Assembly: GCA_025774615.1 (NCBI GenBank) | Contig: JALGVQ010000062.1 | Coordinates: 1 to 13,830 of the forward strand | Direction of reading: 5' to 3' | DNA length: 13,830 nucleotides | Source of the DNA: a bacterium | GTDB taxonomy: Bacteria > Blakebacterota > Blakebacteria > Blakebacterales > Blakebacteraceae | Part shown: piece by piece, positions 4,853-7,173 of the stretch | Layout: every line of letters begins with the position of its first letter | How positions within the stretch are numbered: position 1 is the stretch's first letter | The notes under the pieces: model-generated | The model's database searches: none | Told to the model about the DNA's origin: nothing | The model's input: the letters and a program-made list of their open reading frames with translations, nothing else | Program-made: the position numbers and the translations under genes

Positions 4853-4857
4853 TGAAT

Positions 4858-4896
4858 GGACTCCGGTGGATATGCTTCACCGGAGTCCTTTTTTTT
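4858..4896 (+). terminator. strong intrinsic terminator of gltA
   Basis: GGACTCCGGTG (4858-4868) and CACCGGAGTCC (4878-4888) form an uninterrupted 11-bp stem with a 9-nt loop, followed directly by eight T residues (4889-4896). This is a canonical Rho-independent terminator for the plus strand. Confidence 0.96.
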
Positions 4897-4915
4897 GTCG
4901 GATCACTCTATCGGA

Positions 4916-5149
4916 TCACAGCCGCTCATCGATCAGGTCGGTGATCTCCTGGTTCTGGGGGAAGACGTTGGTCTTCAGTTTGGAGTAGACCATCTCATCA
5001 TCGAGCCGGATGTCGAATTCTCCATCTCCAGCCGGGATGAGGGTGATCGATTCGAGTCGTTGTTTGTACTGCAGCATCAGATGGTCCGCCAGCCTGGCGG
5101 CCTGTGGTTCGAACTTTCAGACAGCGCAGTAGGTGATTGATACCTTCAC
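4916..5149 (-). CDS. SelW/Rdx-family selenoprotein with in-frame UGA (CxxU motif)
   Basis: Reading the minus strand from the GTG at 5149 gives VKVSITYCAV, then TGA (5119-5117), then KFEPQAARLADHL and on to the stop at 4918-4916. With UGA read as selenocysteine the product is 77 residues, the normal size for bacterial SelW-like Rdx proteins (thioredoxin-like fold, thiol/selenol redox). The UGA falls exactly on the second position of the family's CxxC/CxxU motif: C8, U11. Family features on both sides of it are intact: a beta strand before YC, a long amphipathic helix, GEFDIRLDDEMVYSK (about 42-56), then VFPQNQEITDLI (61-72). A GGGAGG Shine-Dalgarno site sits six bases before the GTG. A SECIS-like hairpin follows the UGA. 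A pseudogene is the alternative, but no other disruption exists. It is next to uspA and trxB, oppositely oriented. The substrate is unknown. Confidence 0.87.
5083..5119 (-). promoter_or_regulatory. UGA (Sec) codon and candidate bacterial SECIS hairpin
   Basis: On the minus strand the UGA (5119-5117) is followed by 14 nt and then by a stem: GG (5102-5101), CCGCCA (5100-5095), loop GGC (5094-5092), TGGCGG (5091-5086), a bulged A, and CC (5084-5083). The apical loop begins 22 nt after the UGA and its first base is G. Both features fit the usual description of bacterial SECIS elements recognised by SelB, which lie inside the coding sequence just after the UGA. Folding was done by eye. Confidence 0.7.
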
Positions 5150-5190
5150 TGGTTCCCTCCCTGACAGCTGTGATCACCAACGTGCGGTGG

Positions 5191-5241: not shown

Positions 5242-5277
5242 GGTAAATAAGAACAGGCTTAAACGGGAGTGTCTATC

Positions 5278-6189
5278 ATGGCTGCGATCAAGCAGATCCT
5301 GCTGCCAACCGATTTTTCAGGTTACAGCAACCAGGCTTTCGAACACGCACTGGCCTGGGCGACCAGTTTTGGCGCGGATATCCACATGCTGCATATCGTG
5401 ACGGTCCACAACTTCGATCCGTTCAATCCCGAACTGGGATTCCCTGGAAATGGGATGAACGACCATCTGCGCGAGTCAGCAGAGAGAGCGATGGATACAA
5501 TCGCCGGGAGCAGGCAGTATGAAGCTTCCATGATCACCATGGAGACGAGGACAGGATTTTCTCCCTGGAACGAGATAATCGATACGGCTGCCAGGATCGA
5601 AGCCGACATCATTGTGATGGCGACCCATGGTCGGAAGGGATTGCAGAAACTTTTTATCGGGAGCACCGCCGAAAAGGTGGTGGAGCATGCTGCCTGTCCT
5701 GTTCTGCTGCTTCGCCCGAGAGAGAACGAGGAGATGCCTGAGGCCGGCGATGTCGCGAGCATCCTCCTCCCGTCTGATTTCTCTGATGAGGCAGGTGATG
5801 CTGCTCCGGTCGCGATAGCGCTGGCGAAGCGTTTCGGGGCGAAACTGAATCTCTTCCACTGTGTTGAGCAGGATGTTCCGCCGCCATATTATGCGGCGGG
5901 CATCACCAGTATTTTTGAATTGAACGATGATATCCTGGCGGTTTCACGAAAACATCTGGCCGAACTCCTCACCGATGACGAAGCTGACGATGTCGATCAC
6001 GATTTCATTATCCGGGAGGGACGCTCCCCACTTGAGATCGTGGCCTTTGCCAGGGAAGCCGCGGTGGATTTGATCGTGATGGCAACCCATGGATACTCAG
6101 GTTTTGAACAGGCATTACTGGGGAGCACCACCGACCGTGTGATCCGGAATACACCCTGTCCACTCCTGGTGATCAGGAGCGCGCAGTAG
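5278..6189 (+). CDS. tandem-domain universal stress protein (UspA family)
   Basis: A 303-residue cytoplasmic protein made of two Usp domains. Domain 1 starts IKQILLPTDFS (residues 4-14) and ends with MATHGRKGLQKLFIGST (114-130) and CPVLLLRP. Domain 2 starts ASILLPSDFS (160-169) and ends with MATHGYSGFEQALLGST (268-284) and CPLLVIR. Both domains keep the G-x2-G-x(about 8)-GS/T nucleotide loop, so ATP binding is likely in each. The ATG at 5278 is chosen over the GTG at 5269 because GGGAG (5265-5269) is 8 nt upstream of the ATG and overlaps the GTG. Family members act in stress survival without a defined reaction. trxB follows after 51 nt, suggesting a stress/redox operon; the selenoprotein gene lies divergently upstream. 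Confidence 0.93.
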   Translation: MAAIKQILLPTDFSGYSNQAFEHALAWATSFGADIHMLHIVTVHNFDPFNPELGFPGNGMNDHLRESAERAMDTIAGSRQYEASMITMETRTGFSPWNEIIDTAARIEADIIVMATHGRKGLQKLFIGSTAEKVVEHAACPVLLLRPRENEEMPEAGDVASILLPSDFSDEAGDAAPVAIALAKRFGAKLNLFHCVEQDVPPPYYAAGITSIFELNDDILAVSRKHLAELLTDDEADDVDHDFIIREGRSPLEIVAFAREAAVDLIVMATHGYSGFEQALLGSTTDRVIRNTPCPLLVIRSAQ

Positions 6190-6240: not shown

Positions 6241-7173
6241 ATGAGTGGTAATGACATTCGGAATGTGATCATCATCGGATCCGGACCCGCGGGTCTGACG
6301 GCGGCACTCTATAACGCTCGTGCCAATCTGGCGCCGCTGGTACTGGCCGGTCCCGAGCCGGGCGGACAACTTATGATCACCACAGATGTTGAAAACTTCC
6401 CCGGATTTCCGGAGGGTATCCAGGGACCTGAACTGATGCAGCGATTCGAGGCTCAGGCTGAGGGATTCGGTACTGATATCCGTCGTGAGATCGTGGAATC
6501 GGTCGATCTCTCCGCGAGTCCCTTTTCGGTCACCACCGAGGAGGGAACCTATCGTGGTAAAACCGTTATCATCTCAACCGGAGCAACGGCACGATGGCTC
6601 GGACTGGAGTCGGAAACCCGGTTCCGGGGCAGGGGAGTATCGGCCTGCGCGACGTGTGATGGGTTCTTCTACAAGGATAAGGTCATAACGGTTGTAGGAG
6701 GTGGAGACTCAGCGATCGAGGAGGCCACCTACCTCACCAGGTTCGGTTCGAAGGTATACCTGGCACACCGGCGGGATGAACTGCGTGCGAGCCAGATCAT
6801 GCAGAAACGAGCCTTTGATAACGAAAAACTGGAAATCCTCTGGAACAGCGTGGTGACCGAAGTGCTGGGAGATGACCTGGCCGGTGTGACCGCTGTCAGA
6901 TTGAAGGACACACAGACGGGTGAAGAGCGGGAGCACGCGACCGATGGCCTCTTCCTCGGTATCGGTCACGATCCCAACACCGCGATCTTCAAGGGGATCC
7001 TCGATATGGACGACGATGGATACCTCCTCACCGATGGCGTGAAGACCAATGTGGATGGCGTTTTCGCCTGTGGTGATGTCACAGATCACGTCTACCAGCA
7101 GGCCATCACGGCGGCGGGTATGGGATGTCAGGCAGCGATCGAAGCAGAACACTGGCTGGAGGGCCAGGAGTGA
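6241..7173 (+). CDS. trxB: thioredoxin reductase (low-molecular-weight type)
   Basis: A 310-residue NADPH-dependent flavoenzyme that reduces thioredoxin. The FAD loop GxGxxG is in IIIGSGPAGLTAALYNARA (9-27). The redox-active pair C136/C139 is in SACATCDGFFYKDK. The NADPH loop GGGDSAIEEATYL follows, and the C-terminal FAD motif GVFACGDVTDHVYQQAITAAGMGC is complete. These are the hallmarks of TrxB; the CATC pair and the second FAD motif argue against a ferredoxin-NADP reductase. The strong AGGAGG site (6227-6232) is 8 nt before the ATG. The stop codon overlaps the start of the MBL-fold gene by one base. No thioredoxin gene is in view. Members of this superfamily can act on glutaredoxin-like partners as well, so a link to the nearby Rdx selenoprotein is conceivable but unproven. 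Confidence 0.95.
   Translation: MSGNDIRNVIIIGSGPAGLTAALYNARANLAPLVLAGPEPGGQLMITTDVENFPGFPEGIQGPELMQRFEAQAEGFGTDIRREIVESVDLSASPFSVTTEEGTYRGKTVIISTGATARWLGLESETRFRGRGVSACATCDGFFYKDKVITVVGGGDSAIEEATYLTRFGSKVYLAHRRDELRASQIMQKRAFDNEKLEILWNSVVTEVLGDDLAGVTAVRLKDTQTGEEREHATDGLFLGIGHDPNTAIFKGILDMDDDGYLLTDGVKTNVDGVFACGDVTDHVYQQAITAAGMGCQAAIEAEHWLEGQE

Follow-up and report, generated by a model that had tools for sequence, protein, structure and literature searches.

A predicted SelW-like selenoprotein gene with an in-frame UGA and a candidate SECIS hairpin in a member of the Blakebacteraceae

SelW-like proteins with a CxxU motif are among the commonest bacterial selenoproteins. They formed the most abundant selenoprotein family both in the Sargasso Sea survey (48 genes; PMC1088965) and in the GOS survey (427 genes; PMC2398784), and bacterial members have also been catalogued in a 2026 review (PMC13188914). 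In Campylobacter jejuni, full-length translation of a UGA-containing SelW (transcript CJnc60) has been documented by Ribo-seq and proteomics (PMC11955535). A survey of epsilonproteobacteria found that some selenoprotein genes, particularly selW, had been missed altogether by annotation (PMC4607533). The locus described here lies in a window of 13,830 nt (the whole stretch of DNA that was analysed) and displays no categorical difference from the catalogued bacterial SelW-like proteins (PF10262), with which it has in common the CxxU motif, membership of the Rdx family, a candidate bacterial SECIS (bSECIS) whose small apical loop contains a G, and a tendency to be omitted from annotation; the window gene starts with GTG. 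On sequence evidence it is a well-supported new member of this long-known and widespread family. It almost certainly encodes a bacterial Rdx-family SelW-like selenoprotein, in which Sec is inserted at the UGA by means of SelB and a SECIS hairpin to form a Cys8-x-x-Sec11 redox pair.

The gene and its coding signals are found on the minus strand of the window:
nt 5156–5161, minus strand: GGGAGG ribosome-binding site, read directly from the sequence
nt 4916–5149, minus strand: selW-like gene of 77 codons plus a terminal TGA, with a GTG start at nt 5149 and the Sec-UGA as codon 11 (from translation, Pfam and TIGR02174)
nt 5117–5119, minus strand: in-frame TGA occupying the second redox position of the CxxU motif, predicted from homologous codons to be read as selenocysteine

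With TGA translated as U, nt 5149–4916 of the minus strand give VKVSITYCAVUKFEPQAARLADHLMLQYKQRLESITLIPAGDGEFDIRLDDEMVYSKLKTNVFPQNQEITDLIDERL, followed by TGA. The sole interruption of this 77-residue Rdx/SelW frame is the TGA at nt 5119–5117, which falls on the second redox position of CAVU, and the C8-x-x-U11 motif closes the first strand of the product (residues 2–8). The preliminary description of this DNA had proposed a 77-residue Rdx-family protein on the minus strand, obtained by reading through one TGA, and both the translation and the profile scores (see below) agree with this; the C8, U11, GTG start and GGGAGG sequence (nt 5161–5156) that it listed are all present. Its statement that no uninterrupted ORF exists here is true of the selW strand but loose for the plus strand, where an uninterrupted 94-aa frame (nt 4856–5140) runs antisense to the selW-like gene; this frame has no separate support as a gene. 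In a same-family relative, ATG replaces GTG at the equivalent start codon of selW. That such a gene is prone to loss in standard annotation had also been suggested, and it is indeed easily missed, with a precedent for selW among the epsilonproteobacteria (PMC4607533).

Pfam Rdx (PF10262) matched residues 2–74 of the product with an E-value of 3.1e-20 (72.6 bits against a cut-off of 22.6), and TIGR02174 (SelT-SelW-SelH) scored 57.3 bits, above its cut-off of 34.2. The window protein and C. jejuni SelW are both UGA-containing SelW proteins, but the former scores 81 bits with the SelTWH_Campy model (NF041051), below the equivalog cut-off of 88, which makes it a relative outside the threshold and not strictly a Campylobacter-type equivalog. 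An AlphaFold2 model, made with the window protein (Cys substituted for Sec) and 17 relatives, had a mean pLDDT of 95.9, and the predicted structure has the Rdx/thioredoxin-like fold of the family. Foldseek aligned this predicted model with the SelW-related crystal structures 2obk, 3dex, 2fa8, 2oka, 2p0g and 2ojl at a TM of ~0.93 and an rmsd of ~0.9 A. Thioredoxins and mouse SelW were more distant matches, the latter (2npb; TMq 0.69) having the thioredoxin-like Rdx fold in common. Sequence searching also recovered PDB relatives (3dex, 2fa8, 2obk), and in these three the motif is CxxC where the window protein has CxxU, so that no SECIS is needed there.

Thiol/selenol redox chemistry is expected of a thioredoxin-like CxxU protein. 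SelB with Sec-tRNA(UCA) would bind the hairpin just 3' of the UGA, and selenocysteine would be inserted at this codon in place of termination. The product would be a thioredoxin-like protein of 77 residues, with Cys8-x-x-Sec11 as its redox pair. Most likely, the Sec selenolate would attack an oxidised thiol or peroxide substrate, after which Cys8 would resolve the Sec intermediate, with electrons supplied by a cellular thiol system.

A scan with an alignment of the residues 3' of the UGA position recovered 220 relatives, with matches in 74 of 386 genomes. An earlier scan with the C-substituted window protein had found no relatives, probably because it used exact single-protein patterns that were too narrow, one of them across the UGA position. 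Named hosts of the homologues include Poribacteria, Planctomycetota, Verrucomicrobiota, Gemmatimonadota, Desulfobacteraceae and Neomarinimicrobiota. Among 153 homologous copies, the codon aligned with the Sec-UGA is TGA in 140, TGC in 10 and TGT in 3, a TGA:Cys ratio (140:13) that is not a census, since the query alignment was built from TGA copies and is biased to TGA. No other codon occurs: TGA or Cys aligns at this position in every copy, as the preliminary description had expected, and its refuting condition of homologues without a redox residue at the UGA did not apply. Three genomes (G364, G266, G130; loci L088, L089 and L090) have SelW paralogues of the TGA type as well as of the Cys type. 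One copy (L056; G142:C466:4377-4586) has an extra in-frame TAA in addition to the Sec TGA, and may be a true pseudogene or an assembly error.

The same-family relative G003 has a selW copy that is 70% identical to that of the window and has TGA at the same codon. The two genes differ at 72 bases, 43 of them at third, 18 at first and 11 at second codon positions, with none in the TGA, and the stretch TACTGCGCTGTCTGA is identical. The orthologue thus shows purifying selection both before and after the TGA, and not the decay that the preliminary description had named as a refutation. An assembly error at the TGA of the window is unlikely, as this relative has the TGA too.

All four genes of the Sec machinery, whose absence would have counted against the preliminary description, were found in the host genome, a fragmented draft of 324 contigs and 82% completeness: selB (321 bits, contig C262), tRNA-Sec with anticodon tca (UCA) (66 bits, C184), selA (509 bits, C132) and selD (351 bits, C273). 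The host selD (L021 1501-2418; G000:C273:7717-8634) itself has an in-frame TGA in the motif CAG-U-ASKLGP, followed by a hairpin of -20.2 kcal/mol. This TGA is at the catalytic Cys position of SelD, and selD is probably a second selenoprotein gene of the genome. Counting selW, the host has at least two genes from selenoprotein families with an in-frame UGA. The sequence identifies a very short gene, of the kind that annotation normally drops, as coding for a selenoprotein, and shows a host equipped for selenocysteine use.

Across the genomes searched, selB was present in 58 of the 62 with a TGA-type copy compared with 115 of the 324 others (Fisher p 2e-18, a value that is only a guide as the genomes are not phylogenetically independent). 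Three of the four selB-less genomes with a TGA copy (G003, G063, G326) have a tRNA-Sec above the cut-off. In the fourth, G192, which is rated 98% complete, neither selB nor tRNA-Sec was found. The SelW of G192 (L032, G192:C9:31494-31709) is of the TGA type and keeps the usual stem sequence; a binning error, divergent machinery and a relict gene are alternative explanations for this case.

A stop codon inside the frame could also mark a decaying Cys-type SelW pseudogene, in which TGC or TGT had mutated to TGA, and a genome of the same genus (G001) is without a detectable selW copy. However, the absence of selW from G001 is uninformative, since even the genes around selW find no DNA match there. 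Third positions account for most of the substitutions between the two genera, and the frame has neither a frameshift nor another internal stop. Given also the conservation of the TGA at the same codon in 140 of the 153 copies and the Sec machinery of the genome, the chance that the gene is a pseudogene appears exceedingly small. Smaller still is the chance of a global reassignment of UGA to an ordinary amino acid such as Trp, which would equally allow the in-frame TGA to be read through. In the window, TGA terminates lpd, trxB, a metallo-beta-lactamase-fold gene, a ferredoxin gene and selW itself, and these ordinary stops refute global reassignment and indicate local Sec recoding; moreover, the aligned codon in homologues is never a Trp codon, and the genome has a gene for tRNA-Sec(UCA).

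Eukaryotic SECIS elements, such as that of mouse SelW, sit in the 3' UTR and not in the coding region. The candidate element of the window is as follows:
nt 5083–5102, minus strand: candidate bacterial SECIS hairpin with the apical loop GGC at nt 5094–5092, or AGGCU with the A-U pair open (from folding and family-level pairing)

The hairpin begins 14 nt 3' of the UGA and its loop lies 22 nt after it, which confirms the position given in the preliminary description, where a stable stem with a G-first loop had been placed at the site usual for bacterial SECIS elements. The published bSECIS model (PMC13188914) specifies a loop of 3–9 nt, a stem of 4–16 bp, a G in the first two loop positions, a loop 16–37 nt after the UGA and an MFE of -7.5 or lower. 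The window hairpin agrees with it throughout (loop GGC at 22 nt, with G in the first two positions; 6 bp core; -13.0 kcal/mol for the hairpin and -8.6 kcal for the core). While the G of the loop was thus upheld, exceptional stability was not: the single-sequence stability does not exceed that of dinucleotide shuffles (z 0.18), for which reason it was dropped as evidence for a SECIS, and 13.7% of synonymous-codon shuffles of the window gene fold as well as the native hairpin. Rfam at gathering thresholds gave no match in the window, and hence no independent SECIS call.

Pairing across the family was examined in 100 TGA copies that were less than 85% identical over the hairpin stretch, with within-gene synonymous codon shuffling as the control. 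One DNA alignment, three rows of which were in the wrong register, was kept out of the statistics. The five core pairs were formed in 90% of stem cells, against 71.7% (sd 1.4) after shuffling (z 13). Ten Cys copies showed no such excess (52% vs 49% shuffled, z 0.6). At pair +18/+30, which is at a third codon position on both sides, CG, TA, TG, GC and AT all occur. A conserved hairpin might instead follow merely from conservation of the AASLA peptide, with the UGA read through without a SECIS, and in the window gene all five core pairs do appear in 24% of synonymous-codon shuffles. Yet family pairing 13 sd above such shuffles, covariation at the synonymous third positions of +18/+30, and Cys homologues without a pairing excess together make this very improbable. 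Two other features discriminate poorly: the loop G at +23 is found in 97 of 100 TGA copies and also in 9 of 10 Cys copies, and so is not diagnostic alone, and a G-loop hairpin of some kind at the right spacing occurs in 139 of 140 TGA copies and equally in 13 of 13 Cys copies, so that the mere presence of a hairpin is weak evidence. The argument for a SECIS element in the window gene comes from the pairing excess and the covariation across homologues, and not from the window sequence alone.

The SelW copies of planctomycetes (L103, L139, L145, L152, L160, L174) have GUGAGCCUGGC or GUGGGCCUGGC in place of the GUCAGUUUGGC of the others, about 17 nt after the UGA. In these copies the usual stem is broken. 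Another stem, with CGUGA or GUG as its loop, can form 4–5 nt closer to the UGA, and it looks as though the putative SECIS had slipped register with the protein unchanged.

The features flanking selW are on the plus strand:
nt 4858–4888, plus strand: strong intrinsic terminator of the convergent gltA, a 13-pair stem then TTTTTTTT, just beyond the selW stop
nt 5269–6189, plus strand: uspA-like gene (ORF), divergent neighbour of selW
nt 6241–7173, plus strand: trxB-like gene (ORF)

The neighbour names are readings of translations, with search backing for trxB only: matches in the plasmid search were mainly to trxB and included trxB annotations. In a same-family relative (L015/L101), a 69% identical uspA and trxB have the same divergent layout from selW, with trxB adjoining uspA in L101 too, and a metH-like gene separates selW from gltA. 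A search of the 107 remaining homologous loci, many of them with short flanks, gave no match to uspA or trxB near selW. The functional link between selW and the uspA-trxB cluster put forward in the preliminary description is weak, as the genes are on opposite strands and the arrangement recurs in the same-family relative only, not in the 107 other loci. Co-regulation of these genes is conceivable, though the case for it is weak. It seems improbable that the SelW of this lineage is a dedicated redox partner of its UspA and thioredoxin-reductase neighbours, in which case one divergent promoter region would control a selenium-dependent reductase belonging to the TrxB system. For the substrate of SelW-like proteins, the conserved divergent position of uspA nevertheless offers a modest lead.
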